Shown: one piece after another, positions 10,467 through 28,703 of the stretch | How the letters are laid out: each line of letters starts with the position of its first letter | How positions within the stretch are numbered: the stretch's first letter is position 1 | NCBI RefSeq assembly: GCF_003865135.1 | Contig: NZ_BHZC01000001.1 | Location: 4,402,001-4,466,000 of the forward strand | Origin: Streptomyces chrestomyceticus JCM 4735 | Lineage (GTDB): Bacteria > Actinomycetota > Actinomycetes > Streptomycetales > Streptomycetaceae | Direction: 5' to 3' | DNA: 64,000 nucleotides | The notes under the pieces: model-generated | Told to the model about the DNA's origin: nothing | The model's database searches: none | The model's input: the letters and a program-made list of their open reading frames with translations, nothing else | Made by a program: the position numbers and the translations under genes

Positions 10467-10478
10467 AGCTCGTTGCTT

Positions 10479-10570: not shown

Positions 10571-10606
10571 GGGGCCTGATCCGTGAGAGCGGATCAGGCC
10601 CCTGAC
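10567..10606 (+). terminator. tRNA-Pro terminator carried by the element
   Basis: A perfect 16-bp stem (10567-10582 with 10591-10606) with loop GTGAGAGC, followed by TCGTT. It lies directly after attL and is therefore element-derived. It replaces the original terminator of the tRNA gene, which was displaced to 24621-24652. Confidence 0.85.
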
Positions 10607-10610
10607 TCGT

Positions 10611-10632
10611 TGGGGGGCCAAACAGGGGGCCA
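10611..10632. repeat. Left arm-type repeat (candidate integrase/excisionase site)
   Basis: A 22-base sequence made of TGGGGGGCCA followed by AACAGGGGGCCA. It recurs identically at 24433-24454, inside the opposite end of the element. Paired direct repeats just inside both att sites are what tyrosine integrases use as arm-binding sites. Confidence 0.6.
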
Positions 10633-10643
10633 CGCAAAGTGAA

Positions 10644-11864: not shown

Positions 11865-11931
11865 GCGGTGATCTCCAAATCAGCGGGCCGCGCCCGAAAG
11901 CGCGGCCCGGTAGATGCGAACGAGAGGGAGG

Positions 11932-12144
11932 TCAAGCGGCAGCTTCTGTCTCGCCCTTCAGCAGTTCGACGTACTGCGCGATGTACTCAGGCGGGATGAG
12001 TCGGCGGCGGCCGATGCGAACTGTCCGAAGACGCCCAAGGCGGATCTCCTCGTAGACCAGCGAGCGGCCGATGCCCAAGGCCATCGCTGCCTCTTCCGGT
12101 CGGTACAGAACCCGCTCAGCGGGAGCGGCGATCGTAATGCTCAT
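11932..12144 (-). CDS. xis: Excisionase-like helix-turn-helix protein
   Basis: A 70-residue MerR/excisionase-type winged helix protein (RPEEAAMALGIGRSLVYEEIRLGRLRTVRIGRRRLIPPEYI). The start at 12144 has the ribosome site AGGAGACACCCGG immediately upstream; the longer frame upstream runs into the repeat-rich non-coding region and is rejected. Beside an AICE integrase such proteins bend attL/attR and direct excision. Whether this one is excisionase or a small regulator cannot be separated from sequence alone. Confidence 0.85.
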   Translation of the reverse strand: MSITIAAPAERVLYRPEEAAMALGIGRSLVYEEIRLGRLRTVRIGRRRLIPPEYIAQYVELLKGETEAAA

Positions 12145-12586
12145 CCGGGTGTCTCCTAAGCGGGGAGTGCGGGAGCCCGTGTCTGTCCGAGGTGCGGATT
12201 TCTGCGTCACCTGCGTCATCTGCGTCATCCGTGGCTCTGACCAGCCGTTTCGGGGTGACGCAGGACTCTGATAGCGCGTCACCGGTGACGAAGAGCTTCG
12301 TCACCGGTGACGCAGATGACGCGGGGTGACGCAGAGATCGGCCGTCTGCGTCACCGCTGTTCCGGCTGGTCACGTGCCGTTTGCGGGGTGTGGGTGACGC
12401 AGGTGACGCAGCGTCTTTCTACTTCGGACAGAGGGGTGCTGTCTGTTGTGGTGCGCGGCTCAGAGCGTGAAGAAGGAGCCGCTTCGCGGCGCGCCCTGCG
12501 CAGGGCGGCGGAGCCGCCGAACAGCAAGAGGAGCACGCGCGGACGGGTGCTCCTCTTGCTTGTCCCCGCGCCGTGGTGCCGCGCGG
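12145..12586. promoter_or_regulatory. Iteron and palindrome region, candidate replication origin of the AICE
   Basis: No gene is supported in these 442 bases. The heptamer TGACGCA (or its complement TGCGTCA) occurs eight times: 12203, 12212, 12221, 12256, 12327, 12347, 12395 and 12404. At its centre lies a 36-base perfect inverted repeat: 17 bases (12277-12293) mirrored at 12296-12312 across a two-base centre. Each arm itself contains the palindrome GTCACCGGTGAC. The location between excisionase and the replication genes fits an origin or a master operator region. Confidence 0.65.
12523..12560 (-). terminator. Hairpin terminator at the end of the AICE operon
   Basis: A perfect 14-bp stem (12523-12536 with 12547-12560) with a ten-base loop, 26 bases downstream of the minus-strand stop of the replication ATPase gene. 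It probably ends the long minus-strand transcript. Confidence 0.8.
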
Positions 12587-14065: not shown

Positions 14066-14067
14066 CG

Positions 14068-14973
14068 CTACACCCCCAGGGCGGTGCGGGCGTTGGCCCA
14101 CGCATCAGCGCAGTGCCGCGGGGACTCGCCCTTGGCCTGCGCGGCGGCGAACAGCCTGGCGACGTGGCCGTCGGAGAGACAGCCGCACCGGCCGTGCACC
14201 GACAGCACCGCCAGAAACGTGCGGTACACGGTGGTGTGGACCGCACAGGTGGCCTCGGTGATGCGCTGCTCGGCCATGGTGATGCCGCGTTCCAGGTAGG
14301 CGGGAGTGCGGTGCGGGCACGCTCCGCCGCCGGCGGGTGCGGGCACGGTGACCACCGGCCCCACCGGGGCGGGTTTTTTCGCGGTCAGCGCGCGCACGGC
14401 GTCGGGCAGATCGGTCAGGGTGCCGGTGCCGGGGCCGAGCCACCGTGCGTAAGACATGCGCGACTTGAGGTCGACGCCGGGCCGCACAGCGTTCGCGGAC
14501 TGCATCGCACCCCGGTAAATCCAGTGCTCACCGCGCGTCGTCGGCACGGTCCGGGTGGCCGGCAGGGTCCGGCGGGCCCATGCGACGGCCGCCGCGTCGT
14601 CCAGGTCGACCACCGTCAGCCCCGCCCCGCCGGGGTGGTAGCCGACGCAGACGGCCTGCCGCCATACCGCCGTCCAGGCCGCGGAGGCGATGACGCACGG
14701 GTCGGTGGTGGCGGCGGCCCAGGCGTGGCAGATGCCGGGGCACTGGCAGGGGCCCGCGGTCTTCATGTTCGGCCGGCCGCCGCAGGCGTTCTTGGCGCAG
14801 GTGCGGCAGTTGCCGAACGGCACCTTGCCCGCCCGCAGCGGCAGCACGGGCACTCCGGCCGCCGCGAGGCCCAGCGCGGCACGCAGTAGGTCATGCGTGC
14901 TCATGCCGCCCTCCCCGGCGCCCGGAAAACGCGGCCGGGATACGGCTCGCCGGAACGAGGTGGGTTGCGTCAT
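14068..14973 (-). CDS. Bifunctional DNA primase/polymerase (Prim-Pol) replication protein
   Basis: A 301-residue protein. LRAALGLAAAGVPVLPLRAGKVP opens the Prim-Pol domain, followed by a cysteine-rich insert with CRTCAKNACGG and GPCQCPGICHAW. Then come the catalytic acidic motif VVDLDD and the basic/histidine motif TTRGEHWIYRG. The C-terminal third (CAVHTTVYRTFLAVLSVHGRCG...) is helical and typical of actinobacterial Prim-Pol initiators. Two starts are possible, ATG 14973 (with GGAGACCTCCAGC) or ATG 14904 (with GGGGAGGGCGGC); homology to Prim-Pol begins after the second. It is paired with the ATPase gene, the arrangement of AICEs that do not use a RepSA-type initiator. Confidence 0.87.
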   Translation of the reverse strand: MTQPTSFRRAVSRPRFPGAGEGGMSTHDLLRAALGLAAAGVPVLPLRAGKVPFGNCRTCAKNACGGRPNMKTAGPCQCPGICHAWAAATTDPCVIASAAWTAVWRQAVCVGYHPGGAGLTVVDLDDAAAVAWARRTLPATRTVPTTRGEHWIYRGAMQSANAVRPGVDLKSRMSYARWLGPGTGTLTDLPDAVRALTAKKPAPVGPVVTVPAPAGGGACPHRTPAYLERGITMAEQRITEATCAVHTTVYRTFLAVLSVHGRCGCLSDGHVARLFAAAQAKGESPRHCADAWANARTALGV

Positions 14974-15012
14974 GCTGGAGGTCTCCTGTTTCTGTCGAAG
15001 GGACGGAGAACC

Positions 15013-15049
15013 GGGGCGGTCGCGGTCTTTGGCGAGAGGCGACCGCCCC
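15013..15049 (-). other. Conserved intercistronic hairpin, copy A
   Basis: On the minus strand GGGGCGGTCGC and GCGACCGCCCC form an 11-bp perfect stem around the loop CTCTCGCCAAAGACC. It stands about 40 bases upstream of the Prim-Pol start. The same stem and almost the same loop recur at 20090-20130 and 21482-21520, and a diverged form at 17889-17928. Confidence 0.8.
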
Positions 15050-15057
15050 AGCCACGT

Positions 15058-15522
15058 CTAGCCGTGGAAGTGGTTGCGCTTGATGACGGCCTTGCGGATG
15101 TTGACCGTGGTTCCGCCGCTGTGGCCGCTCGCGCGGAAGACCTGCGTGGCGACCCAGCCACCGAAGATGACGGCGGCGAGGATGATGAGCTTCGCCACCA
15201 GCGCGGTCAGGGCGGCGATGAACGTGGTGAGCAGCAGCAGACCGCCGCACACGGCCAGGAACCCGACGCCCCCGAGGGCGACGTTCACCGCCGCGCGCGA
15301 GACGACGGGCTTGGCCGCGACCGGTTCGGGCTGGGCCGGGGCGATGGCGTAGCCGGTGACGATCCGGCCGTCCGGCAGGACCACGCTCGACACCGCCGGG
15401 ACGGTGCCCGGCTGGACGTGTACGAGCGGTGCCGGTGTCACGGCGGCGGGGGTGATGGGGGTGGGCCGGTGGACCTTCACGGCCCGCTCGTCGGCCCCGT
15501 GGCGAACGGGATCGGGGTACAT
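15058..15522 (-). CDS. AICE membrane protein, Spd-like
   Basis: A 154-residue protein of unknown function starting at ATG 15522 (MYPDPVRHGADERAVKVHRPTP), which has GAAGGGATTCC as ribosome site. The N-terminal 80 residues are proline-rich and cytoplasmic. Two adjacent hydrophobic segments follow at about 85-135 (NVALGGVGFLAVCGGLLLL and LVAKLIILAAVIFGGWV), ending with a basic tail. The position directly downstream of traB and the topology resemble the spread (Spd) proteins that help distribute an element within the recipient mycelium. That role is inference from location. Confidence 0.7.
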   Translation of the reverse strand: MYPDPVRHGADERAVKVHRPTPITPAAVTPAPLVHVQPGTVPAVSSVVLPDGRIVTGYAIAPAQPEPVAAKPVVSRAAVNVALGGVGFLAVCGGLLLLTTFIAALTALVAKLIILAAVIFGGWVATQVFRASGHSGGTTVNIRKAVIKRNHFHG

Positions 15523-15545
15523 GCGGAATCCCTTCACGGAAGCGA

Positions 15546-15725
15546 CGGGGAGGCAGAGACACCCCCTGCGGGGGCGTCTGTGGAGGGGTTTTCTGGGGTG
15601 CTGACCTGCGTGCCTCCCCGCCTCCCCGAAGCGGTGTTTTCGCTGATCAGCGTGGGGGAGGCGGTTCGGGGAGGCGGTTGGGGAGTTCTCCCCGCCTCCC
15701 CGGACCGAAGCGCGCTGCCTCCCCG
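15546..15725. repeat. Cluster of GCCTCCCCG repeats next to traB, candidate clt transfer locus
   Basis: Six exact copies of the nonamer GCCTCCCCG in either orientation lie at 15546-15554, 15612-15620, 15620-15628, 15667-15675, 15694-15702 and 15717-15725, plus two near-copies (15654-15662 and 15679-15692). The cluster ends three bases before the traB stop codon. In Streptomyces conjugative elements the TraB translocase recognises short direct repeats (TRS) in a clt locus near traB, so this is the best candidate here. Confidence 0.6.
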
Positions 15726-15727
15726 GA

Positions 15728-17842
15728 TCAGGAGGCGGAAACGGAATCGGTATCCGCGCGGTCGGCGAGCGCGGCGCGAACGGCGTCGCGGCGCACGACC
15801 ATGCGGCCGTGCGACTTGTACGGCTCCACCCCGTCCGCCTCCAACACGCGCTTGAGGTCGGCGAAGGTCCACGAGCCGTAGGCGTCCGCGTTCAGCAGCG
15901 ACAGCCGCTTGAGGATGTCGGCGGTCAGCGGGCGCTCGACATCGCCGATGGCGTCGGCGATGTCGGCCAGCGCATCACGCTCCTCGCCGCGCTCAACGGC
16001 GTGCAGCGTGGTCACGCCATCGCGCAGGGCCTTGGCGCGGTCGGTGATGGCCACGGCCGCCTCATCATCGATGTAGTGCGTGCGTACGGTGATGGACGAC
16101 TGCCCGGCGGGGATGGTGATGCCGTCGGAGGCGACGACCAGGGTTCCCCGGTCCAGGCCCGGACGCAGCAGGTTGGGGGCGGCGCCGCCGTCGACGGCCT
16201 TGTCCCCCAGCGCCATGCGCGCCTGCGACTCCGTCCCCAGCGCGAGGGAGGCGCGGGTGTGGGCCCCCTCGCGGACCAGCTTGGGCAGGTTCTCGTTGGT
16301 CGGGTCCTGCGTGCCCTGCCACATCAGCACGTTCACCGCCCGCCCCTGATTGTGAATCTTGCGGACGGCCATGAAGTACCGGGAGTTGGCCTTGGCGCCG
16401 CCGTAGGGGCGCTTGTCCTCGTCCTTGGCCGGGCACATGAACGCCACCTGCGCCTCGTCCACCAGCACGATCAGCGGCGGGAAGACGGTGCCGGGCGGCG
16501 CCTGGATACGGCGGTTCATCTCATCCACCGCGCCCTCGACCATCTCGGTCACCTGGATGACGTGCTCGTCGGTCGGGCCCTGGATCAGGGTGGTGGCGAG
16601 CCCGTCGAACATGGCCCAGTCGCCCACGCCCTTCAGGTCGCCCATGAGGAACTGCACCGACCGGTCGAGCGCCAGCCACAGCGCCAGCGAACGCAGGGCC
16701 ACGGTCTTGCCCTGGTTCGACAGGCCCGTGATGAGCAGATGGCGCTGGTACAGGCTCAGGGCGGCGGCATCCCCACGCAGGTCCTGACCCCACGGCGCAC
16801 GTCCCGTGGCGTAGTCGGCGGTCAGCGTCTCGTCGGTGACCAGCGGGGACGGGCCGATCGGCTCGTCCAGGGCGCCGGAGTCGGCGATCCACAGCCGCAC
16901 CGTGCGGGCCGCCTGCGGGATGGTGATGAACACCTCGTGCTCGTGCCGGGTCAGGTTCTCCGCCAGCTTCCGGCGGCGCCCCTGCACCTCCACCGTCGAC
17001 ACCCCCGACGGCAAGGTGACATCCACCTCGACGCCGCATCCGGCGATGGTGATCGGCCCGAGCATGGAGGCGCCGGCGTCGCCCATCTCCTTGATGGCGT
17101 TGCGCAGCGCCGGAACCCCCAGGTCTCGCAGCGCCTTGACCACGATGGACGGGGTGATCGGCTCGCCCTCACCGGAGCGGGCGTTGGCGGGAAGGGCCCA
17201 CTGGGGTGCGGCCTGCTGCTTGCGGCCGACCGACCACAGCGCCAGCAGGGCCAGCAGCGGACCGACCGTCAGCGCCGGGCCCCACACGATGCGCACGATG
17301 CGGATCAGCAGGGCGATGAAGTCGACCGTCGCGGACAGCGGCGTGATCACATCTCCGACGTGCTTGGTGTTCAGCGCCATGACGACGCCAAGCGCGACCA
17401 GCACGCCGATGCTCATGCCGGCGCCGACGGCGACGCCCTTGACGGCATCGACCGGGGAGTGCAGCAGATCCATGCGGCGGTGGTGGCGGGCGGCGCGGAA
17501 GCGCTGCAACCGCTCCTCCCACTCCTCGGCTGCCTCCAGGTTGCCCGCGGCTTCGGCGGCGCGGAGCATCCGCTCGTAACGGGCGCCGGTGCGGCCGTCC
17601 CAGGTGCGGCGGGCCACGATCCGCCCGCCGTTGACCGTGTAGAGGCCGTGCCGGGCCGCCGCCCGGACCGCCGCCCGCGTCCTGTCGTGGGTGACGGCCG
17701 TCTTGATCGCGTGCCCGGAGCGCACCCACAGCGGCACCGGCGGTGCCGGCGCAGCGTCCGGTACGACGGTCAGGGTGGTCACCGGCGCGTTCTCGTCGGG
17801 CAGAGGGGCGGGCTTGTGGAGCTGGACGACGTTCTCAGACAT
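15728..17842 (-). CDS. traB: FtsK/SpoIIIE-type DNA translocase, TraB-like transfer protein
   Basis: A 704-residue protein starting at ATG 17842 (MSENVVQLHKPAPLPDENAP). Membrane segments lie at about 135-160 and 170-205. The motor domain has Walker A GLSNQGKT at 373-380 and Walker B LIVLVDEAQ at 457-465. The last ~60 residues (FADLKRVLEADGV...GRMVVRRDAVRAAL) form a winged-helix domain like FtsK gamma, expected to read the clt repeats. It would pump double-stranded element DNA between hyphae at mating. It is preceded by a GGAGAGCTCCAGC ribosome site and followed at once by the GCCTCCCCG repeat cluster. It is the only conjugation motor in the element. Confidence 0.92.
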   Translation of the reverse strand: MSENVVQLHKPAPLPDENAPVTTLTVVPDAAPAPPVPLWVRSGHAIKTAVTHDRTRAAVRAAARHGLYTVNGGRIVARRTWDGRTGARYERMLRAAEAAGNLEAAEEWEERLQRFRAARHHRRMDLLHSPVDAVKGVAVGAGMSIGVLVALGVVMALNTKHVGDVITPLSATVDFIALLIRIVRIVWGPALTVGPLLALLALWSVGRKQQAAPQWALPANARSGEGEPITPSIVVKALRDLGVPALRNAIKEMGDAGASMLGPITIAGCGVEVDVTLPSGVSTVEVQGRRRKLAENLTRHEHEVFITIPQAARTVRLWIADSGALDEPIGPSPLVTDETLTADYATGRAPWGQDLRGDAAALSLYQRHLLITGLSNQGKTVALRSLALWLALDRSVQFLMGDLKGVGDWAMFDGLATTLIQGPTDEHVIQVTEMVEGAVDEMNRRIQAPPGTVFPPLIVLVDEAQVAFMCPAKDEDKRPYGGAKANSRYFMAVRKIHNQGRAVNVLMWQGTQDPTNENLPKLVREGAHTRASLALGTESQARMALGDKAVDGGAAPNLLRPGLDRGTLVVASDGITIPAGQSSITVRTHYIDDEAAVAITDRAKALRDGVTTLHAVERGEERDALADIADAIGDVERPLTADILKRLSLLNADAYGSWTFADLKRVLEADGVEPYKSHGRMVVRRDAVRAALADRADTDSVSAS

Positions 17843-17888
17843 GCTGGAGCTCTCCTGACTGCCCCTGCGGGGCGGGCGTAAGGGAGAG

Positions 17889-17928
17889 CCGGGGTGGCCG
17901 TGTCCGTGGAAAGAGGCGGCCACCCCGG
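17889..17928 (-). other. Conserved intercistronic hairpin, diverged copy B
   Basis: CCGGGGTGGCCG (17889-17900) and CGGCCACCCCGG (17917-17928) form a 12-bp perfect stem 47 bases upstream of the traB start. The sequence differs from copies A, C and D but the stem length, loop size and place relative to the next gene are the same. Confidence 0.7.
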
Positions 17929-17949
17929 CCAGTGAGCGAAGGGGGCCGG

Positions 17950-18267
17950 TCACCACCAGCCGGAGGACTTCTTGGCGGCCTTGGCGCGGGCCGCCTCGGT
18001 GATCAGGCGTTGACGCTCGCCGTGCAGGGCGGTCAGCTCCGCGGTCAGTCGCATCTCGGCGGCGGAGCCGGCCGCGTCCATCTGCTCCTCGGCGCCGCTG
18101 GTGTCACGGCCGCGGGCGTAGCGGTAGGACCCGGCGGCCAGCGCGCGGGCCATGGCCCGGCGCTCACGGCCGTTCAGCGGCCACCGCTCCCCCCGGCGGA
18201 GGGCTTCGAGCTTCTTCGTCGTCTCCCGGATCTCACGGTCCAGGCGGCGGATGTCGGGGTTGCCCAT
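17950..18267 (-). CDS. AICE hypothetical protein, charged and helical
   Basis: A 105-residue protein starting MGNPDIRRLDREIRETTKKLEALRRGERW with ribosome site GGGAG ten bases upstream. It is predicted to be almost wholly helical, with two heptad-like stretches (residues 5-25 and 70-95), and ends KKSSGWW. It is not a family I can name; similar small coiled proteins occur upstream of traB in AICEs. It starts two bases after the RRQ-type zinc protein gene, so the genes are coupled. Confidence 0.7.
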   Translation of the reverse strand: MGNPDIRRLDREIRETTKKLEALRRGERWPLNGRERRAMARALAAGSYRYARGRDTSGAEEQMDAAGSAAEMRLTAELTALHGERQRLITEAARAKAAKKSSGWW

Positions 18268-18268
18268 C

Positions 18269-18616
18269 TCAAGTGCTCCCATCGGACCCGTGCGGGTCGG
18301 GGTCGGCGCACGGCACGCAGGTGCCGAGCGAGGTGGGGATGACGTAGCCGGCATCCCGCCGGCAGCCGGGGCAGGTGCGGCGGGCGCGCATCGCGGCGTC
18401 CAGCGCCGCCCGCCGGGCCGGTGTCATCGGCCTCACCGGTCGGGCGAGGTCGATGCGGTAGAGGTAGGCGACCAGCGGGCCCCGGCGGCGACGCGGCCGT
18501 TCGAGCTGCGCGGCCACCGGCTGACCGCCGGGCCGCAAGCCACGGGCGCGGAGTTGGCGGCGGGTGGCGTAGCCGTCCGGGGCCAGGCGCCACCGGAAGA
18601 CCGGCAGCGCCGCCAT
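18269..18616 (-). CDS. RRQRL-motif zinc-binding-like AICE protein
   Basis: A 115-residue basic protein. ATRRQLRARGLRPGGQPVAAQL is the RRQ(R)L-type motif seen in a family of actinobacterial mobile-element proteins. Near the C-terminus CPGCRRD and CVPCADPD supply four cysteines for a zinc ribbon. Between them lies a TPARRAALDAAMRARRTCPGC segment. Function is unknown; nucleic-acid binding is likely. It overlaps the stop of the upstream membrane protein by one base. Confidence 0.75.
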   Translation of the reverse strand: MAALPVFRWRLAPDGYATRRQLRARGLRPGGQPVAAQLERPRRRRGPLVAYLYRIDLARPVRPMTPARRAALDAAMRARRTCPGCRRDAGYVIPTSLGTCVPCADPDPHGSDGST

Positions 18617-19479
18617 CAGGCGACCACGCGCTTCCAGGCGGCCCGCAGGCGGACCTCGGAGGCGGAGTGGCCGGCGGCGCGGAAGCGGGCGGCCAACTCG
18701 CGGTAGGACAGGGCCGGGACTTCGCTGTGACGGATCTGGTCGACCAGTGCGTCAAGCGCCTCGTCGGTGAGCGCGGGCGCCGCCCCCGGTGTGAGCGCCG
18801 GTACCGGTTCGGTGGGGCCCCACACCGGCAGGTCCCAGCGGGGCGTGACACCGGGCGTGACGGGGGTCGTCACGCAGGTCAGCGCCCGTGCGGTGTCCTC
18901 CCCGTCGCGGGCCGTCTCCAGCGTCGACCAGGCCCGCGAGAGGGTCTGTGCGGTCTTGGCCTGGACGCGTGCGACGCGGGCCCCGGCCTGCGTCACGGCC
19001 GTCAGCCGGGTCTCCTCGGTGACCGCTTCCGCCCGCAGCCGGGCGCGGGCCACGGCCGCCTCGTCGCGAGCTTCCTGCTGGATGCCGCGGATCGCTCCCA
19101 GCGCGCCCGGGGTGAGCGCGGTGCGCTCCCACAGGCCGTGCACCAGCCACAGCGCCTTGGCCGCGACCGGCAGCCACGCCACCGCCAGCCACGCCCCGGC
19201 GGACTCCTTCGCGGTGAGCGCGTGCGCCACCAGGACACCGGTCGCGATCAGGCCGAAGCACCAGCCGACGGCGGTCACCACGCGGTTGTGGTCACCCTGC
19301 GCGGCAAGGCGGCGTTCGTAGGCGAGGGTGGCCAGCCATCCGCCGTCGATGCCCACACCGACGACCAGGGCGACGGGCCACGGCACGGCCGTGCCCAGCC
19401 ACATCACGACCACGGCCAGGGTCAGGACCATGGACACCGCCGTCATCGCCACAGCGGGAAGCACGGTCTTGGCCTTCAT
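18616..19479 (-). CDS. AICE membrane protein with DUF2637/Spd-like N-terminus
   Basis: A 287-residue protein starting MKAKTVLPAVAMTAVSMVLT. Four hydrophobic segments fill the first ~115 residues, including GVGIDGGWLATLAYERRLAAQGDHN, which resembles DUF2637 transfer-associated membrane proteins. The central region (130-200) is a helical Ala/Arg/Glu stretch, and the last 60 residues (LTDEALDALVDQIRHSEVPALSYRELAARFRAAGHSASEVRLR) look like a helix-turn-helix. A membrane anchor with a DNA-binding tail fits a role in plasmid spreading or transfer. The start overlaps the upstream stop by four bases. Confidence 0.75.
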   Translation of the reverse strand: MKAKTVLPAVAMTAVSMVLTLAVVVMWLGTAVPWPVALVVGVGIDGGWLATLAYERRLAAQGDHNRVVTAVGWCFGLIATGVLVAHALTAKESAGAWLAVAWLPVAAKALWLVHGLWERTALTPGALGAIRGIQQEARDEAAVARARLRAEAVTEETRLTAVTQAGARVARVQAKTAQTLSRAWSTLETARDGEDTARALTCVTTPVTPGVTPRWDLPVWGPTEPVPALTPGAAPALTDEALDALVDQIRHSEVPALSYRELAARFRAAGHSASEVRLRAAWKRVVA

Positions 19480-19754
19480 GCCGGCACCCCCGCTCGTGTC
19501 CGCACGGTGACGGCCGCGATCAGCAGGACCGGCGCGCTGTCGTCGTCGGGGTCGGCGCTGTCCTCGGCCCACGCCCACTCAGCACCGGGCCGCACCTCGT
19601 ACCCGAGAGCGGCCAGCACCTCCCGCCGCTCGGCCACGGTCGGCACCGCACCCGCCTCAATCGCAGCGGTCGGCCAGTCCGAAGACCCCGGCACCACGAC
19701 GTAGAGACGCCACGGTCCGCCGTCGCTCGACATCTGCGCCGTCAGCCCGCTCAT
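19476..19754 (-). CDS. DUF6303-like small AICE protein
   Basis: A 92-residue protein starting MSGLTAQMSSDGGPWRLYVVVPG. The WxLYV and VPTVAERREVLAALGYEV segments match the DUF6303 type of small proteins that accompany Streptomyces mobile elements. It is acidic, without membrane segment, and of unknown function. It overlaps both neighbours by ATGA-type junctions, so it belongs to a tightly coupled cassette of four genes. Confidence 0.75.
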   Translation of the reverse strand: MSGLTAQMSSDGGPWRLYVVVPGSSDWPTAAIEAGAVPTVAERREVLAALGYEVRPGAEWAWAEDSADPDDDSAPVLLIAAVTVRTRAGVPA

Positions 19755-20062
19755 GCCGCCTCCCCCGCTTCCGACTGGTCGGTGCGGGCGGCACGCAGGA
19801 ACGGCACCGTACGGGTCAGCGCGTCGGCGTACAGGGCGTCCCAGGCGGCGATCTCGTCGCCGTCCTCGCCCATCGCCCGCAGGTCCGCGGCGATGTCGCG
19901 GGCCGCGTCCTCACGGGCGCGGCGCTCGTCGGCCGTCTCCGGCCGCAGCGGGCCGCGGAACAGCTCGACGTCCAGGCCGGTCGGCCGCTCGTCGAAGCCG
20001 AACGCCAGCTCTTCGAACTCGGTCTGGTTCACGAGCTGGTGATGGCCGATGTAGCTACGCAT
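19751..20062 (-). CDS. AICE hypothetical acidic protein
   Basis: A 103-residue acidic protein starting MRSYIGHHQLVNQTEFEELAFGF with a good ribosome site (AGGAGTTCTGCC). The remainder is helical (ADERRAREDAARDIAADLRAMG...WDALYADALTRTVPFLRA). I do not recognise the family. It is the first gene after hairpin copy C and starts the four-gene overlapping cassette. Confidence 0.7.
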   Translation of the reverse strand: MRSYIGHHQLVNQTEFEELAFGFDERPTGLDVELFRGPLRPETADERRAREDAARDIAADLRAMGEDGDEIAAWDALYADALTRTVPFLRAARTDQSEAGEAA

Positions 20063-20089
20063 GGCAGAACTCCTGACATCGAAGGGATG

Positions 20090-20130
20090 CCGGGGCGGTC
20101 GCGGTCCTTGGCGAGAGGCGACCACCCCGG
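20090..20130 (-). other. Conserved intercistronic hairpin, copy C
   Basis: CCGGGGCGGTCGC (20090-20102) pairs with GCGACCACCCCGG (20118-20130) with one G-T mismatch; the loop on the minus strand is CTCTCGCCAAGGACC. It lies 28 bases upstream of the next start codon (20062). Confidence 0.8.
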
Positions 20131-20172
20131 AAGGAAGAGACCCGGCCGCAGGACGGGCCGGGGGAGACGCGG

Positions 20173-20622
20173 CTAGGCCGCGGCGATGATGAGGGCGGCG
20201 ACCAGCAGCCACAGGTGGTGGAAGGACTGGTCAAGCGCGTACGCGCCGGTGCCGATGTGCGGGTTGTCGTCGCGGCCGGCACGCGGGGCGCCGAGCCGGT
20301 AGAAGTCGGCTATGCCGATCACGCGGGCCAACCACGCGAGCGTGGTGCGCCGGTCCGCCCACCAGTGCGAGGCCGCATCCACAGCGAGCCCGGCGACCAG
20401 GCCGGGCACGGACAGGCGCAGGTCCAGCAGCCAGGCGACCGGCAGCAGGACGGCCGCCTTGGTGGCGGTCAGGGTGGCAACGTGCCGGGCGTCCGCGAGG
20501 CGGCCGGCCCAGCCGGGGCGGCCCTTGTGCGCGGACTGGCGAGAGGTCTGTACCCAGTGATCCCCCACGCTGTGGGCGACGTACAGGGCGGCGAACACAG
20601 CGGCGAAGACGGCCGCAGCCAT
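20173..20622 (-). CDS. AICE integral membrane protein, DUF3307-like
   Basis: A 149-residue protein with four hydrophobic segments. VAHSVGDHWVQTSRQSAHKG near the N-terminus and DAASHWWADRR in the middle carry the conserved His, Asp and Gln residues of DUF3307 proteins. The ribosome site AGGAGTCGCCCG precedes the ATG. The function of the family is unknown; membrane location is clear. It lies between the DUF4097 gene and hairpin copy C. Confidence 0.75.
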   Translation of the reverse strand: MAAAVFAAVFAALYVAHSVGDHWVQTSRQSAHKGRPGWAGRLADARHVATLTATKAAVLLPVAWLLDLRLSVPGLVAGLAVDAASHWWADRRTTLAWLARVIGIADFYRLGAPRAGRDDNPHIGTGAYALDQSFHHLWLLVAALIIAAA

Positions 20623-20662
20623 CGGGCGACTCCTAGGCGAGAGAGAAGGATCGGACGATGGC

Positions 20663-21436
20663 TCAGTGGTTGCGGACGCGGCCGGAGACGGTGTTGGCGG
20701 ACACGCTCAGGTGACCGGCGCCGGAGATGCGCACGTCGCCGGAGACGCTGTGGGCGCTGACGTGTCCGGCGGCGCCGTTGGTGGCCTGCACCGTGATGTC
20801 CCCGGAGGTGGTGTCCAGGCTCGCGCCACGGCCGTCGTACGAGCCCACCTGGATGTCGCCGGAGACCGACTGTGCGGTGATCTGTTCGGTGACGCGGCCG
20901 GCGCGGATGTCACCGGAGGTGGTGTTGGCGCGCAGGTCCCGCGCGCCATCGGCGTACAGGTCGCCGGAGATGGACCGGAACTCGATCCGCTCAACGTCAC
21001 CGTAGACCGCCGCGTCGGCGGCCTGCGAGACGACCGCGAGGGAGGAGCGCGGGGGCACGCAGACCGTTGCCTCGATCGGGCTGACGGTCTGCATGGTGTC
21101 CATGCCGCCGGAGATGACGCGGCCGTTGACAACGGTCATGCCGGTCACCGACCCGTAGACCGTGCCGAAGTTCTGCACGATCCGGTTGCCGCGTCGGCTC
21201 TGCGTCATCACGTTGCCGGGCATCTCCGGCACCTCGATGCCGAACGCCTGCCCGTTCTGCCGGCTACGGGCGCCGTTGACGGCATCGGCCGCCGGGCCCG
21301 TGGTGTCGTCGGTGCGCAGGACCACGCGGGCGGTGGTCAGGTTGTCGATGACCTGGATGCGGACGCTGCCGACCGGGAGCGAGATCCCCAGCACGATCGG
21401 ACCGGAGGTCTCGGAGAGGAAGACACGCTCGGTCAT
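20663..21436 (-). CDS. DUF4097-like beta-solenoid protein in the AICE
   Basis: A 257-residue protein. The C-terminal half consists of the repeated pattern xSGDIxxxxxxxxxxxxxTxSGDI, seen at SISGDLYADG, TTSGDIRAG, SVSGDIQVG, TTSGDITVQ and SVSGDVRIS. This is the DUF4097 right-handed beta-solenoid. There is no signal peptide, so it is probably cytoplasmic or membrane-peripheral. Such proteins recur in Streptomyces mobile elements without a known role. It starts at ATG 21436, about 45 bases after hairpin copy D. Confidence 0.82.
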   Translation of the reverse strand: MTERVFLSETSGPIVLGISLPVGSVRIQVIDNLTTARVVLRTDDTTGPAADAVNGARSRQNGQAFGIEVPEMPGNVMTQSRRGNRIVQNFGTVYGSVTGMTVVNGRVISGGMDTMQTVSPIEATVCVPPRSSLAVVSQAADAAVYGDVERIEFRSISGDLYADGARDLRANTTSGDIRAGRVTEQITAQSVSGDIQVGSYDGRGASLDTTSGDITVQATNGAAGHVSAHSVSGDVRISGAGHLSVSANTVSGRVRNH

Positions 21437-21481
21437 GAAGAACTCCAGGTGGTCGAAGAGACGTTGAGGTGAGCGAAGCGC

Positions 21482-21520
21482 CGGGGCGGTCGCGGTCCTT
21501 GGCGAGAGGCGACCGCCCCG
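21482..21520 (-). other. Conserved intercistronic hairpin, copy D
   Basis: CGGGGCGGTCGC (21482-21493) pairs perfectly with GCGACCGCCCCG (21509-21520); the minus-strand loop is CTCTCGCCAAGGACC, identical to copy C. A second short hairpin (GCTGCTCGT/ACGAGCAGC, 21588-21610) lies further upstream in the same gap. Confidence 0.8.
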
Positions 21521-21682
21521 AAGAGCACCCGTCCGCGAGGGCGGCGGGCGGTGGAGCGCTATGAATGCGTGCGCGGCTCCCCTCAGCGCTGCTCGTACGA
21601 GACGAGCAGCGGAGGCAACCGGCCGCAGCGGGAGAGCTGCGACAAGGTCAGGTGGCGCTGTAGCGACGGGTGCGGGGCACGC

Positions 21683-21871
21683 TCAGGCGTTGAAGGTGAT
21701 GCCGTGGCTGCCGCCGGTGATGTGCACGCCGGTCGCACCGTCCTCGCGGACGTTGGTGTTGTCGTAGGTGGTGCCGGTGCTGGTGTTCTCGTACGTGTCA
21801 CCGTCGCCGGTGTGCACGGTGCCGGTGCCGCCGTTGATGAAGGTGTTGTTGTCCTCATTGCGCTTGCCCAT
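21683..21871 (-). CDS. Small Gly/Thr/Asn-rich repeat peptide
   Basis: A 62-residue peptide starting MGKRNEDNNTFINGGTGTVH with an excellent ribosome site (AGGAGCTGTC). After a short basic start, all of it is Gly/Thr/Asn/Asp-rich with a repeated TGxxYxNT pattern, like one or two turns of a beta-solenoid. No family known to me. It lies between the HIT-protein gene and the DUF4097 solenoid gene, so the two beta-rich proteins may interact. Confidence 0.7.
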   Translation of the reverse strand: MGKRNEDNNTFINGGTGTVHTGDGDTYENTSTGTTYDNTNVREDGATGVHITGGSHGITFNA

Positions 21872-21961
21872 GACAGCTCCTGTTGTTGTCCCGGCCGGAC
21901 CGGACCGTCCGGCCACCGCGCCCCGCACGCACACGGCGTGTGGAGCACGGCGGCCGGAGGG

Positions 21962-22324
21962 TCAGGCGGCGGACTGCTGCGGCGTCCAGGGCAGCGGCAG
22001 CGCATCATCGACGATGCGCGGCACCACGTGAATGTGCAGGTGGAACACGGTCTGCGTGGCCTCAGCGCCCTTGGAGGTGATGAGGTTCAGCGAGCCGCCG
22101 ATGCTGGCGGCGTACTCGGCGGCGCGGGTCATGGTCGCGCCGGTCACCGCGGGGTTCTCGGTCGCGTCGGCGACATGTACGGCCGGAATGACCAGGACGT
22201 GGCCGTCGGTGACCGGGCCCAGCGGCACGATCGCAATCGCGTCGTCCCAGCGGGCCACCACCGTGGCCGGCGCCTTACCGGCGACGATGCGGCAGAAGAT
22301 GCAGTTCGTGGAGCACTTCGACAT
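21962..22324 (-). CDS. HIT family nucleotide hydrolase/transferase
   Basis: A 120-residue histidine-triad protein. CSTNCIFCRIVAGKAPATVV opens the fold with a CxxC pair; HVLVIPAVHVADATE and the catalytic triad HLHIHVVP follow near residue 95. HIT proteins hydrolyse adenosine phosphoramidates and dinucleotides. As AICE cargo it might act on a nucleotide signal or modified nucleotide. The HAD hydrolase at the right end gives the element a second phosphate-cleaving enzyme. Confidence 0.9.
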   Translation of the reverse strand: MSKCSTNCIFCRIVAGKAPATVVARWDDAIAIVPLGPVTDGHVLVIPAVHVADATENPAVTGATMTRAAEYAASIGGSLNLITSKGAEATQTVFHLHIHVVPRIVDDALPLPWTPQQSAA

Positions 22325-22447
22325 GACGGAATCTCCTGTGGAGTCGGAAAGGGCAAGTCAGATGAGGTGGCACGAGCAGTCGCGGCACCCCGCCGCCCGG
22401 CGTCGCCTGTGTGGCGGCCGGACGGAAGGGACCGTGAGCACTGGTGC

Positions 22448-22546
22448 TCAACCGCGCGGGAAGTTGGGGTGCGCGGTGGTGACGCGGCGGGCATGGCCTG
22501 CGCCGTGCCGGTCCAGCACGGGCGGCGCCCAGAACGTTCGTCGCAT
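22448..22546 (-). CDS. Possible 32-residue leader peptide of the AICE operon
   Basis: ATG at 22546 with a near-perfect ribosome site GGAGGTTCCG, encoding MRRTFWAPPVLDRHGAGHARR and 11 more residues before a stop at 22448. It would be the first gene of the minus-strand operon, behind the operator array. It has no recognised homology, so only the ribosome site and position support it. Confidence 0.4.
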   Translation of the reverse strand: MRRTFWAPPVLDRHGAGHARRVTTAHPNFPRG

Positions 22547-22737
22547 CGGAACCTCCGAGGTAGGAGGGGCAGTTGCGGGTGTCTCCTTCGGGAACACGAG
22601 CTCCCGTTTCAGGCGTATGGAGACGTGACCTTTCGGTCTAAGCCCTCCGGATGACAAGGCCCCGGGCGCCTCCCCCCGTCCACCGCGGGGCTCCTGGTCG
22701 TGCGGTTGTGCAGGTGAACCCGCCCCGGCCTGACCAA

Positions 22738-22813
22738 CTTGGCTAGCCCGGCGGGCACGAGAACAACGTAGCCAGCCTGGCTAGTCATGTCAACACCTGG
22801 CTAGCCTGGCTGC
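22738..22813. promoter_or_regulatory. Operator array for the divergent GntR regulator
   Basis: Units of (C)TGGCTAG are repeated between the GntR gene and the main operon. There is a palindrome GGCTAGCC at 22741-22748, a perfect inverted repeat TAGCCAG-C-CTGGCTA at 22769-22783, another GGCTAGCC at 22799-22806, and CTGGCTG at 22806-22812. All lie within 110 bases of the regulator start codon. Such an array in a divergent promoter fits autoregulation and repression of transfer genes, like KorSA-type control in pSAM2. Confidence 0.7.
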
Positions 22814-22846
22814 TCTGATCGCGGTGAAAGGACGTAGCATCGAGGC

Positions 22847-23713
22847 ATGACCTTCACGCCCGAACCCCTGGACCCGGACGACGACCGGCCGCCGTTTGAG
22901 CAGGTGGCGAGCAGCCTTGGCGCCGCCATTCGGACGAAGAAGCTAGGCCCCGGCGACAAACTCCCCTCGCACAAGACACTGACCGAGCTGTACGGATTCG
23001 CTCGCGCCACGATCCAGCGGGCCCTCCGCGACCTGGAGGACGAAGGTCTCGTTGTGTCCCGTAAGGGCAGCGGCGTGTACGTCCGCAACCGAACTGAACG
23101 GCCGGCCGGTCTCCGCCCGTATGTCGAGCAGGCGTTTGCCAGTACCAACGTCTCGATCGACTTCGCCGGCTTTTCGAGCGAGACCCTGCACAGCGCCCTT
23201 CAAGAGCCCATCGACAAGATTCGCGTTGGCCGCCTAACCCCTTCGAGCATCACCATCCGAATCCTGGTGCCGGACATGTCGGTGCCACACGCCGCGCCTG
23301 TGCGGCGCGAAGACGGGACGGACGACCCGCGCCTACGCCGCCGGATGCACGACATGATGGTCGGCTTCACGCGCAGCATCACCAACTCAATCCATGAGCT
23401 GAGCGTTCTCGGCCTGGTACCGGAAACCAAGGTGAGCGTGCGGGTCCACACGGGAACGCAGTTCTTCAAGCTGTACGTGATCAACAAGGAAGACGCGTTT
23501 TTCGGGTACTACCCCATCCGCCCCAACAAGGTGGTCGCGGAGGGCGAGGCCATTGAGATCTACGATCTCGTAGGGACCGATGCCACGCTTTTCCACTACT
23601 CGGTGAACGAAGGCGAGTCATCGAGCGGAGCGCAGCAGGTCGAGCAGGCGCGCATGTGGTTCGACAGCGTTTGGGACACCATCGGAAGGGACCTCGGCCC
23701 TGATGGAAAGTGA
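22847..23713 (+). CDS. GntR family transcriptional regulator of the AICE
   Basis: A 288-residue protein. Residues 13-80 form the GntR winged helix (PPFEQVASSLGAAIRTKKLGPGDKLPSHKTLTELYGFARATIQRALRDLEDEGLVVSRKGSGVYV). The ~200-residue C-terminal domain (ITIRILVPDMSVPH...FYPIRPNKVVAEGEAIEIYDL-type) is not a clear UTRA or FCD domain and may sense a small molecule. It is divergent from the replication/transfer operon, with its probable operators in between. Its gene overlaps the HAD hydrolase gene by 11 bases. The base composition is lower in GC than the surrounding chromosome. Confidence 0.9.
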   Translation: MTFTPEPLDPDDDRPPFEQVASSLGAAIRTKKLGPGDKLPSHKTLTELYGFARATIQRALRDLEDEGLVVSRKGSGVYVRNRTERPAGLRPYVEQAFASTNVSIDFAGFSSETLHSALQEPIDKIRVGRLTPSSITIRILVPDMSVPHAAPVRREDGTDDPRLRRRMHDMMVGFTRSITNSIHELSVLGLVPETKVSVRVHTGTQFFKLYVINKEDAFFGYYPIRPNKVVAEGEAIEIYDLVGTDATLFHYSVNEGESSSGAQQVEQARMWFDSVWDTIGRDLGPDGK

Positions 23714-24398
23714 CAAGCTCACCACGGTCATCAGGGAGTCCAGCGGGATTCTCTTCGACTTCGACGGGCCGATCTGCGACGTGTTCGCGGGTCTGCCCGC
23801 TCCCGGCGTCGCCCAGGACCTCACGGAAGTCGTGGCTGGACACGATGTGCCCCTTGGCGGCAAGGCGCGCGGCCTTGAAGACCCGATGGAGATTCTGCGC
23901 CTCGCAGTACAAGGCGGCGAACCGGTCATCCGAGCAGTCGAGGAAGCACTGACTAAAGCCGAAGTGTCGGCCGTGAAGGTAGCGGGCCCGCCGATTCCCG
24001 GCGCGGTCGCCTCCCTCGAAGCGGCGCACTCATCCGGGCGAAAGACTGCCGTGGTCAGCAACAATTCCGCAGTCTGTGTACGAGCGTTTCTGAAGCAACA
24101 CAATCTTCATCACCTAGTGCACGAGGTGATCGGACGCGCCGCCTATCGACCGGACCTGATGAAGCCCGACCCTCACTCGCTATTGATCGCCGCCGAACGG
24201 CTGGACGTTCCTCCGAAACGCTGCACGCTCATTGGGGACTCGGTGACAGACATCGAAGCTGCCCGTACTGCCGGAGCGATGTCGATCGGCTTCGCCAACA
24301 AGCCTCACAAGACCCTCGCCCTGACTGAAGCCAGGGCCGATGCAGTGATCACCGACATGGCCGAAGTGGCTGGCGCTCTCGCATCGAGCCCCTGGTAG
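23703..24398 (+). CDS. HAD superfamily hydrolase
   Basis: A 231-residue phosphatase-like protein. Motif I is LFDFDGPICD (nucleophile Asp at about 19 and Asp 21), motif II is TAVVSNN, motif III includes MKPDPHSLL and motif IV is LIGDSVTDIEAA, so all four HAD motifs are intact. It overlaps the GntR gene and is the last gene before attR. Because it is co-transcribed with the regulator, its product or substrate could be the GntR ligand. pSAM2 has a Nudix hydrolase (Pif) in a comparable place, which acts in transfer immunity; equivalence here is speculation. Confidence 0.88.
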   Translation: MESDKLTTVIRESSGILFDFDGPICDVFAGLPAPGVAQDLTEVVAGHDVPLGGKARGLEDPMEILRLAVQGGEPVIRAVEEALTKAEVSAVKVAGPPIPGAVASLEAAHSSGRKTAVVSNNSAVCVRAFLKQHNLHHLVHEVIGRAAYRPDLMKPDPHSLLIAAERLDVPPKRCTLIGDSVTDIEAARTAGAMSIGFANKPHKTLALTEARADAVITDMAEVAGALASSPW

Positions 24399-24432
24399 CG
24401 ACCTTCCGGGCGGCCAAGAGACAGGGGGCCGA

Positions 24433-24454
24433 TGGGGGGCCAAACAGGGGGCCA
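24433..24454. repeat. Right arm-type repeat
   Basis: Identical to 10611-10632. A further partial unit (CAGGGGGCC) lies just to its left at 24422-24430, giving three unit copies at this end against two at the left. Confidence 0.6.
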
Positions 24455-24558
24455 AACGCCTCGGCATCAGCCGGACACTGCCGGACGACAACGGACAGTC
24501 GCGCCGCACAACTTCCCGTTCGTCAGCCACCTCACCAGGTCAAGGATCACGAGAATGG

Positions 24559-24620
24559 CGTTCGGGACGAAGAGGTCGTGGGTTCAAATCCCGCCACCCC
24601 GACTGAGAAGTAGCAGGTCA
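24559..24620 (+). repeat. attR, right 62-bp att copy (3' half of tRNA-Pro)
   Basis: Exact copy of 10509-10570 without the 5' half of the tRNA. It marks the chromosomal boundary of the element. Confidence 0.95.
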
Positions 24621-24838: not shown

Positions 24839-27800
24839 GTGGTGCAGGACGGGGTCAGGAATGCGATCAGTGGGGGGAATTTCGAGGCGCCGGTCATCCA
24901 GGCCGCCTCGGTGACCGTCCAGGCTGCCATTGAGCCCACGCCGCCGAAGGAGCCGTGGGTCAGGGCCGTACTGGAGTCGGGTGTCTGGGCGCATGCGGCC
25001 CAGCGTGACGCCGAGCCCTGCCGGCAGCATGCGGCCCGGCTGGCGGGGCGGCTGGCTGCTGTCCGGGATGCCGCCGAGCAGCGGATCGCGGGGGACCCGT
25101 GGGCCGACCCCGGGTTCGCTACGCGGTTCGCTGACCGCGTCGAGTGGCTGCTCGGGGAGCCCGACGGCGCGCTCGATCTCTACCCGGCCGAAGCCGGGAT
25201 GCTCGTTCTGCTGCCCTACCTCTACCAGGCCCATCAGCTTCTTCTGGTGGCTTCCCGTGTGGAGGTCGTCCCGGCCGACCTGCGGTCCCGGCCGCAAGCG
25301 ACCGGGTGGCGGGCCGGTTATCAGTCCTTCCTGGCCGGTCACGGCCTCTTGGTGAACCGGGCGGAGCTGCGGCCGGAGTCCTCTTCGGTGATCGGGTGGT
25401 GGCTGTACCGCCGTTGGCTCGCGCAGGAGGACAAGGGGGCGGGTCGGCTCGTCGACCTGGCTGCTGAGCTGGTGGACGAGCATGGTCCGCTGACGGAGGC
25501 GCTGAGTCCGCGACGGCTGGCGAGGATTCTGGCGGGGCTGCGGCTCGGGGCCGAGGTCTGTAATGCCGAGCATCTAGGTCAGTTGGAGGCGGACGACGTC
25601 TTACCCGGGCCCGGCCACCAACGCATCAGGGAGCGACGGGCGAGTCTGCTGCTGGCCGTCGCGTACGGCTCCGCGATCGAACTCGCGGTGCTGCCGGACA
25701 CGGTGGTCGAGCACACCGGCATCCCGAACCCCGTCGACCTGGACGGCGTACGGCGGACCTTGGCCGGGTCGGCATGGAGCGGACCGCCGGCGCTGCCGGT
25801 CCTGAAGGCGGTCTGCGAGCACGAGGCCGTGGTGGAAGCGCTGCGCGAGCATACCGAGCGGCTGGACGGGCTGCTGCTGGCGGTCGGCCGCACCGTACCC
25901 GACCGGATCACCCAGCCGATGCCGGCGTTACCCGCGCGGGTCTCCGCGGACGGTGTGGTCCCGGCGGAAGGAACGTTCAGCAGCAGTGCGCGCTTTCGGC
26001 TGGACGACCGACGGGTGCGCGGTCTGCTGACCGGCACCCAGCTCTACAAGGACCACGGTCTTGCCGTGCGGGAGCTGTACCAGAACGCTCTCGACGCGTG
26101 TCGCTACCGGCGTGCCAGGACGCAGTACCTGGAGCGGTCCGGCCGTCCCTTCCATCCGTACGAGGGTCGGATCGATTTCCGGCAGGGGGTCGACGAAGAC
26201 GGCCGTCCGTATTTGGAGTGCTCGGACGACGGGATCGGTATGGGCGAGGCGGAGTTGCGCGGGGTGTTCTCGCACGCCGGTGCCCGCTTCGCCGAGCAGC
26301 CCGACTTCCTGCTGGAGCAGGCGGAGTGGGAGCGGGTGGAGCCACCGGTACGGCTCTACCCCAACAGCCGGTTCGGCATCGGTGTCCTGTCGTACTTCAT
26401 GCTCGCGGACGAGATCCGGGTGACGTCCTGCCGGATGGGGCTGGACGGTGTGGGCGGGCCGGTGGTGGAGGCGCACATTCTTGGGCCGAATCACCTGTTC
26501 CGGATCGTGGAGAAGGCAGGGCAGGCGGACCGGAAGCCCGGCACCCGGGTACGGCTCTACCTGCGGAACGAGCATCGTTCCTGGTCGGGGCTGCACGCGT
26601 TGGGCGAAGTGCTGCACATCGCCGAGTTCCGCACGACTGTGGAGCACGGTACCCGGCGAAGAGTGTGGGACGCCGGGGTGTTCCAACCGGAATACCCCAG
26701 GGTGTACCACCAGTCGGTCGAATGGCAGGACAGCCCGCCGGGCACACAAGTGATCTGGTGCAAGGAGGGAGGCATGCTGCTGGTGGACGGGCTCCGGATT
26801 GAACCGGGGCGGAAGGTCGGCGTGCTGTCGGGGCCTCGTGGTGTCGTGGTGAATTTGAGCGGAGAGCACGCTCCCCGGAACCTCAGTACCGACCGTCTCA
26901 CGGTGTTGGACGATGTGTCGGCTCAGGTCGAACAGTTGCTGACGGCAGCGGCGCCTGCCCTGGTGACGGACGCGACGGGTTTCCTCACGCTGGGATGGAT
27001 GCATGGAGTCGCCCAAAGTAGCCCGCGCACTGCGGACCTGGTGGCGGCGGCCGCTTTCGATGCGAGGGTCGGGTTCCGTGTACGCGCGGATACGCCAGTC
27101 CTCGCAGCGGCCGGATGCTTCCCTATCGACCTAGAGCTCATTGCCCCCTGTTGGCGCCGGACCACCGCACGGCCCATATAGCGGGCGGCTTCCATTACTC
27201 CATACCGGACCACCTCTTGCTCTGGCGTACGCTCGCCCACGAAGGCAGCCATCTCGCACTTGAGCTGACGCAGCTCGTGCCGGAGCTGGGCGAGCCACGC
27301 CAAGTGGTCCTGGCCAGGCCCTCGGATGTGGAGTTGCTCGGCGGGAAGCCCTTCGGGTTGGGATACCCCGCCCCGTCGGACGTCTTCGGCATCAGCCGAC
27401 GACTCGGCTGCGAACCATCTGGCCCAGCAGCCCGGCGGCGTCTCTTCGGTGCCCCTGAGCTGGTTATTCCCGACTCGTCCAGCTTGCAGGAGTCGGGCCT
27501 CTCAGACATGGATTGGCTAGACACGCCGCATCGTCACGGCCGCTCGTACGCGGTGATCGGTGATCTGCTGGGGGTCGGCCAGAAGCTCGGGATTAGCGCG
27601 GCGGAAGCTGCGGTCAGGCTCCGCCACTACGGCATCAGTGTCGTGCCGGAGGAACTGCCGGAGGGCGCACCCGATGAGGTGGACCTCCAGCTTCTGCATG
27701 GGGACGGCGACACCGTCCAGGGGAGAATCATCTGGCACGACAGCCCCGTACCACCGGGCCACGTGGCACAGGCCGCCCTGCGGACAGGGCTGGACCCGAG

Positions 27801-28703
27801 GGAGGTGCAGTATCGGATTGAACAGTACGGCTTGAAAGTGCAGCCGTTCGACTTCCCGGACTGGCCGGACCAGACGTACGTCAACTGGCTCAGTGAAGGC
27901 CACGACGGGCAATGGCCGTGGCTGGACGCCGACCGGCCTCTCACTCCCTGGCAGATCCTCGCCGCACAGATACGGATGGGCTGGTCGGCGGACGACGCAC
28001 GGGCAGCGTACGGATGCCTGGGCTTCGAGCTGCCACCGCGGCCGACCTGCCGGTCTTCACCCGACGACCTGCAGCTTCTCGCAGGCCGCGGGGAAGCCTT
28101 CTGGGCGCCCTTTCGGACCGATCGCGCACCGGAGTTCCACCAACTTATCGACGTCAGCGCGCACTTGGGCCTGAGTATTCGCACGCTGCTCAACCGGCTG
28201 GCTGCTTACTGGGTTAAGACGGAAATGGTTCTGCCGCAGCGGGCGACCGAACTGGACCGTGAGCTGTTCAGCCGGGATGACCTGTCGCGCCTCAGTTCGC
28301 TCGAACCGCTGCACGAAGGGACCCCCCTTGGTGGTACCGGCTCACCCCCGATGACGAGATCCCCTTCTTCCGCCTCGTCATTGCCGCCCGAGACCTGGGT
28401 CGGCGCCCCAAGGAATTGGCCACCAGACTCCGCTCCTACGGACTCCGGGTCTCCCACGACGACGTACCGCCGGGCCTCACCCACCGCGCCGCACTCCGTC
28501 TCCTGACGGCCGACGATCGGCGGAAGCCACTGCCGAAGGACCCTCCGATGTCGCTCGCCCAGCTCATCTGGACCGCCCGGTACGCAGACATGCCAGTGGC
28601 GGTCACCGCCCAATACCTGCGGGGTATGGGCATGCACGTAGCGGACCTGGCCGAAACCGTAAGGGCAGCCCTGGCACGAGTGCCGACCGAACAACCGGAG
28701 TGA
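24839..28703 (+). CDS. HSP90-like GHKL ATPase with tandem HTH-like repeats (two frame breaks)
   Basis: Start GTG 24839, six bases after GGGGAGGG. The early NAISGGNFEAPVIQAASVTV resembles the N-terminal tag of actinobacterial conflict proteins. After ~330 uncharacterised helical residues comes a GHKL ATPase: ELYQNALDA (Glu412, Asn416, Asp419), DGIGM (464-468) and RFGIGVLSYF, as in HSP90. The second half has about seven ~65-residue repeats of pattern hxxAxxLGhs...RLxxYGhxV. The frame breaks at C-runs 27144-27148 and 28322-28327; adding one C to each restores ~1288 residues (LIAPLLAPDHRTAH and EGTPPWWYRLTPDDE). UUA codons at 25601 and 25928 imply bldA dependence. Exact role unknown; defence or NTP-dependent signalling is my inference. 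Confidence 0.78.

Follow-up and report, generated by a model that had tools for sequence, protein, structure and literature searches.

HSP90 closes on ATP and thereby brings its N-termini together, and nucleotide-binding oligomerization domain-like receptors (NLRs) bring their N-termini together by oligomerising. In the bacterial amyloid signalosomes set out in passages of PMC7889193, an NLR with an N-terminal motif is accompanied by a Bell protein with a C-terminal motif. Here we describe a gene at 24839..28703 (+ strand) of a 64,000-nucleotide stretch of the Streptomyces chrestomyceticus JCM 4735 genome (hereafter the window), which encodes an iHD-CE / HSP90 / wHTH-repeat protein with an N-terminal tag that also occurs on NB-ARC proteins and on small proteins. 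We lean slightly towards the view that the product is an NLR-like immune receptor that uses an HSP90-type ATPase in place of the NB-ARC switch and seeds amyloid signalling to a Bell-like death effector.

The gene appears in the window as three open reading frames (ORFs; 24635-27181, 27115-28506 and 28416-28703). A first-pass annotation, made from the sequence alone, had joined these into a protein of about 1288 residues, and its coordinates and anatomy were right. The split is borne out by the ORF list and by a whole database protein, P0001, which is exactly 1288 amino acids long and matches all three pieces, with 769/770, 394/394 and 95/95 residues identical and the start codon as the sole mismatch. 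The annotation's interpretation is supported only in part. The protein it took to be hidden has 341 matches at E<=0.001 among 8000 candidates scored (the 120 of these that were listed form our homologue set). The domain family is already in Pfam, so this is not a new kind of protein, and we rejected the idea of a hidden novel one.

The protein scores above the curated cut-offs for all three Pfam domains of this type, iHD-CE (PF24401), HD-CE (PF24391) and wHTH-HSP90_Na-assoc (PF24410), and most of the 120 listed relatives have the same domain set; the paper behind the Pfam models is reportedly that of Burroughs and Aravind 2020. The iHD-CE domain (24956..25966, +; Pfam and genome search) reaches 327.3 bits against a cut-off of 27 and corresponds to what had been called an uncharacterised helical region. 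No conserved His-Asp doublet was found in this region across 43 aligned rows, in which the only fully invariant His, Asp or Glu residues are D86, E118, H292, H328 and E329, a residue pattern that is consistent with an inactive HD fold.

The next module is an HSP90-type ATPase (residues 387-755; 25997..27103, +), identified by alignment, fold and profile evidence. Both the N-terminal (GHKL) and the middle domain of HSP90 were found, the latter also by its fold. The ATPase is intact, as had been proposed, with Asn416, Asp419, DGIGM and RFGIG where they were expected, and the key positions of these elements and of Glu412 are invariant in 43/43 aligned rows. Seven helix-turn-helix (HTH)-like repeats (PF24410; 27364..28695, +; Pfam and repeat model) then extend across the second and third open frames. 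Pfam detects four stretches of wHTH-HSP90_Na-assoc in the second piece (91 bits against a cut-off of 23). We seeded a repeat model with the repeats of P0001 itself and then retrained it on P0027-P0120 alone; it finds seven in P0001, in agreement with the earlier estimate, and six or seven in every one of 22 close homologues, a set that includes P0001. It matched none of 22 reversed sequences and one of 22 shuffled ones.

The protein thus resembles HtpG/HSP90 in its GHKL and middle domains and their catalytic residues, but differs in adding the tag and iHD-CE at the N-terminus and in having predicted helical repeats where HSP90 carries its C-terminal dimer domain. HSP90 is absent among the fold matches listed for the repeat part, a listing that excludes nothing. 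At E<=1 the three pieces gave no match to NB-ARC/STAND, the HSP90-type ATPase being there instead, none to Peptidase_C14 and none to any PADLOC-DB 2.0.0 family.

The tag, a candidate amyloid-signalling motif, occupies P0001 residues 5-29 (24851..24925, +). By a pattern of our own choosing, 94/120 listed homologues have at their N-terminus a short motif built around N...G...V-[VI]-Q-A. We searched with A1, a profile of 30 aligned tagged N-termini from HSP90-type proteins only; these rows include the N-terminus of the window's protein, so its self-match (E 1.3e-9) proves nothing. At E<0.1 the profile also found three other frames in the same genome. One is a 918-residue frame at 7133571, tagged in its N-terminal part (E 1.9e-10) and with an NB-ARC match just under the Pfam cut-off, and another is the 152-residue protein directly upstream of it, tagged at its C-terminus (E 8.2e-4) and without a Pfam match. 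The third is an 881-residue frame with the tag in its N-terminal part (E 0.014) and an NB-ARC domain over the cut-off. An N-terminal tag on an NB-ARC protein and a C-terminal tag on the small protein upstream reproduce the signalosome layout as PMC7889193 gives it in the passages concerned. This Bell-like/NB-ARC pair lies at G000:C1:7133366-7136000 (L063, L072), about 2.7 Mb from the gene, and a second tag-bearing NB-ARC protein is at G000:C1:3899612. The likeness to amyloid signalosomes consists of a short N-terminal receptor tag, its recurrence at the C-terminal end of a small protein and, in some cases, adjacent genes; the difference is that receptors of the P0001 type have an HSP90-type ATPase and HTH-like repeats where the NLR has NB-ARC and other repeats.

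The same association recurs in other Streptomyces. In five further tagged-HSP90 genomes, A1 had matches at E<=0.1 in four, and in three of those four (G014, G115 and G104) small proteins carry the motif near the C-terminus; the fourth (G124) has, besides its HSP90 gene, one NLR-like protein only, judged by eye, and G244 has no A1 match at this threshold. At E<=0.001, A1 marks 86/295 Streptomyces genomes, and the frames that bear it bunch at around 100-280, 680-1000 and 1290-1350 residues. The longest bunch includes a 1300-residue P-loop protein (L115, genome G012), tagged near its N-terminus and apparently outside the iHD-CE family. Two further long tag-bearing frames (G026, G175) fall outside the tagged-HSP90 count; neither genome is in the list taken at E<=1e-20. 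Small tag-bearing frames of 80-280 residues, mostly counted by profile match with few of them read, occur in 57/295 genomes.

Some relatives of the gene lie beside a Bell-like gene. Of 80 named loci, 27 count as tagged by A1 and ten more by a looser pattern, leaving 43 others; the ten include the doubtful L190 and L213, so our counts use the 27 A1-based loci. A Bell-like gene was present in the available flanks of three of the 27 tagged loci and of none of the 53 others, in each case within 1 kb of the HSP90 gene, and two of the three loci also have tagged NLRs. In Streptomyces sp. NRRL S-244 (L142) the tagged Bell-like gene is about 0.4 kb upstream of the HSP90 gene and on the same strand. 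In Streptomyces sp. NRRL F-6492 (L146) the HSP90 gene (9896-13849, +) is followed by a Bell-like gene with a C-terminal tag (14643-15101, -) and by an NB-ARC/TPR protein with an N-terminal tag (15185-17275, +). In S. olivochromogenes DSM 40451 (L152) two Bell-like/NLR pairs (3150-6181, + and 6437-9162, -) precede the HSP90 gene (9986-13900, +).

The tag is not the only N-terminus found on this core. Streptomyces sisters have the same core by profile and the same iHD-CE and repeat domains (L047 and L052 were scanned fully), but carry an N-terminal Peptidase_C14 caspase domain with its His and Cys where P0001 has its tag. Of the long sister N-termini (those from the first round with 240 residues or more, leaving out L046, which passes the length, and a second L088 piece), 21 were scanned; 20 matched Peptidase_C14, and His and Cys are kept in 20; the row without a caspase match is L091, judging by its missing His/Cys, and is an HTH-like form. 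Nine of the tag-less short N-termini had no Pfam match; these short forms are called HTH-like by eye. A tree was built by a short search from 55 core sequences (18 chosen proteins and the sequences of 37 loci) and rooted at its midpoint; on it, the classes of N-terminus (tag, caspase and other) require no fewer than four changes, against a mean of 25.2 when shuffled. This tree leaves out L088, which has a split frame, and labels as "other" both L076, which retains the caspase His/Cys, and L039, which has a weak tag. Caspase forms fall to either side of that root, and the comparison suggests that the caspase-fused form may have come first. That one core can carry either a caspase or the tag argues for a single switch with both as its outputs.

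How such a receptor might work can be outlined from these parts. The C-terminal helical repeats would hold a ligand or keep the protein off, and binding or release of the ligand, perhaps on phage infection, would let the HSP90 module close. Closure driven by ATP would bring the N-terminal tags together, and the clustered tags could fold into an amyloid seed that templates the copy of this motif which a small Bell-like protein has at its C-terminus. The templated protein would then damage the membrane, and the infected hypha would be stopped or killed; the presumed conformational cycle would in this way serve defence. The caspase-fused sisters would work in this way too, with their protease already built in. 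A broader proposal, to which we give just under an even chance, is that an HSP90-type ATPase derived from a caspase-fused ancestor ignites the tag-bearing Bell-like effectors of NLRs, such that HSP90 and NB-ARC receptors would be interchangeable inputs to one amyloid output and amyloid immune signalling in bacteria would extend beyond NLRs.

Other accounts of the protein differ chiefly in what the tag and the repeats do. The tag could recruit an effector other than a Bell-like membrane protein (caspase-like, TIR, CHAT or another); the sisters do carry a caspase in cis, such motifs are found with CHAT and TIR domains in the relevant passages of PMC7889193, and small proteins with N-terminal tags occur in L139 and L140. 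All four linked tag-bearing non-NLR proteins near HSP90 genes were nevertheless Bell-like, and we consider this account fairly unlikely. Several small tag-bearing ORFs crowd short stretches of these two loci (L139 6228-8848, L140 8411-10622), some with the tag at the N-terminus, and are perhaps other tag-based systems. Another account is a DNA-bound regulator, in which the repeats read DNA, the HSP90 module remodels a partner and the tag is a mere protein contact. The fold matches of the repeat model lie in a range that may mean only a common arrangement. The sharing of the tag with NB-ARC and small proteins, together with the caspase of the sisters, fits signalling better than transcription, and we regard a regulator as quite unlikely. 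If iHD-CE were itself a toxin, controlled by the HSP90 and repeat part and with the tag serving self-assembly only, its Pfam name and its retention in the caspase-fused sisters would be accounted for; yet no His-Asp doublet is conserved in it, and the sisters retain it alongside a caspase, so iHD-CE need not be the effector. Such a stand-alone effector seems distinctly unlikely.

An ordinary housekeeping chaperone would account for the true HSP90 N-terminal and middle domains. However, the protein falls far short of the NCBIfam equivalog cut-offs (56.9 against 455 bits for the HSP90 family, 36.9 against 371 for HtpG), the core is fused to tags or caspases, and the family is patchy: iHD-CE exceeds its cut-off in 22/121 Streptomyces genomes, with one copy in that of the window, and no single syntenic site of the kind expected of a housekeeping locus was seen. 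With presence so patchy and sites so varied we rejected the chaperone, which is very improbable. A separate matter, compatible with the receptor reading, is whether the window's copy is a dead relic or the product of an assembly error, any function then residing in relatives; we give this an even chance. The frame changes first in the overlap of two open frames (27115..27181, +; about 27.1-27.2 kb) and again at about 28.3-28.4 kb (within 28300..28506, +), both placed by the ORFs and the comparison with P0001, so this copy may be dead or mis-assembled, and the rest of the window's large genes appear whole by eye from the ORF picks. Against a relic, the pieces are identical to a whole database protein, which comes from sequence other than the single 9.38-Mb contig of the window's genome; decay of the lineage's gene is thus not demonstrated, and an assembly error fits at least equally well. 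The closest named homologue among the matches listed is also from S. chrestomyceticus (92%).

Several observations weigh against the receptor and its Bell-like partner. No Bell-like gene lies near the gene in the window, none was found in the seven first-round tagged loci (by similarity to six Bell-like queries, with a tag search of six loci), and 24/27 tagged loci have none. Four scanned Bell-like proteins had no Pfam match at all, so they are labelled "Bell" for their size, position and tag; between Bell-like sets A and B, the only matches at E<0.1 involve trivially short pieces. In L142 the Bell-like gene is broken as well as internally shortened, and some 5 kb downstream of the HSP90 gene there is a protein that looks NACHT-like by eye and bears no tag. 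With A1 alone, the only Bell-like tags recovered were those in L142 and in the first L152 pair; L146 and the second L152 pair were found by Bell similarity, and their tags were recognized by eye and with a follow-up profile trained on the linked loci themselves. Conflict genes cluster anyway, so the probability of 0.036 attached to the linkage lacks a proper null. Co-occurrence is open to a similar caution: small tag-bearing frames are present in four of five clearly tagged-HSP90 genomes (Fisher one-sided 0.0055), or four of six if the weak tag of G244 is counted (0.014), with phylogeny and genome size uncorrected. A column-permuted A1 matched 0/122 genomes against 39/122 for the real profile, an empty control without a positive of its own. 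In the predicted structure the tag is modelled with low confidence (pLDDT about 55), and the BASS3 peptide, as printed in the part of PMC8086366 that gives it, resembles the tag solely around the VQ core; the tag is at present assigned to no numbered BASS family. Some small tag-bearing ORFs, as in L139, carry the tag at the N-terminus, and few such ORFs of other genomes were read.

Across the phylum, iHD-CE exceeds its cut-off in 3/396 genomes (4/396 at E<=0.001), and those three belong to the window's genus. Among the best 80 of 294 named relatives there are also proteins from Kitasatospora, Saccharothrix, Nonomuraea, Amycolatopsis, Actinomadura, Kutzneria, Rhodococcus and others. A related-locus search with P0001 as the only query matched 13 stretches, none of which was confirmed. 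Plasmid and phage collections held partial relatives only (three plasmid records and one phage record), and none of them reaches 80% query coverage; they include one on a Streptomyces collinus plasmid (NC_022001.1, 46% over 30% of the query) and another on a large Azospirillum replicon (NZ_CP059450.1, 35% over 34%).

The gene borders an actinomycete integrative and conjugative element (AICE; 10509..24620, unstranded; Pfam and repeats), a neighbour outside the system described here. A tRNA scan and repeat comparison place tRNA-Pro (cgg) at 10479..10553 (+), its 3' part forming attL, and attR at 24559..24620 (+) is an exact copy of the tRNA 3' end and following bases, 10509-10570 being identical to it over 62 bases. 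Because this repeat flanks genes for an integrase (10644-11864, -), Prim-Pol (14068-14973, -), an FtsK-like protein (15728-17956, -), GntR (22847-23713, +) and a HAD hydrolase (23703-24398, +), we identify the element as an AICE. The gene starts 218 bp past attR, directly beyond the element as the first-pass annotation had placed it, and its being AICE cargo was rejected on this location. Within the AICE, an ORF at 21683-21934 (-) encodes an 83-residue Asn/Thr/Gly-rich protein with no Pfam match at E<=0.001, and 21962-22324 (-) encodes a HIT-like protein, judged by eye, which is probably the PADLOC ThsC match (E 2.4e-9; the output leaves the member unnamed).

Tagged forms elsewhere occupy other sites, with neighbours judged by eye: L034 is behind a glutamate-synthase-like gene, L036 and L038 share a common site and others lie elsewhere. 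In L035 the tagged HSP90-type gene (9505-13392) directly follows, on the same strand, a gene that looks htpG-like (7479-9395). The window also contains, at 50558-54033, asd-like and lysC-like genes and a gene that stands beside recR in relatives (by eye); the equivalent block carries a tag-less iHD-CE/HSP90 gene in L041, L042, L043 and L048, which is absent in the window, and is a possible second hot spot for the family.

Among the literature matches listed we found nothing on the identity of the tag, the exchange of caspase for tag or the clustering with Bell-like/NLR genes, although other papers may differ. No paper in this search described the N-terminal tag of the iHD-CE/HSP90 family as an amyloid-signalling motif, and none of the matches listed had an HSP90 with BASS motifs or in such a role; both HSP90 passages of PMC3710099 concern sacsin. 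What appears to be new is the tag. The iHD-CE/HSP90 family is a concrete, testable candidate for a non-NLR receptor that bears the tag and, in some strains, stands beside a tag-bearing effector. If this reading is true, HSP90-type ATPases would work here as immune switches, not as chaperones, and a single receptor core would link death signalling of the caspase and amyloid types, one having been swapped for the other on it.

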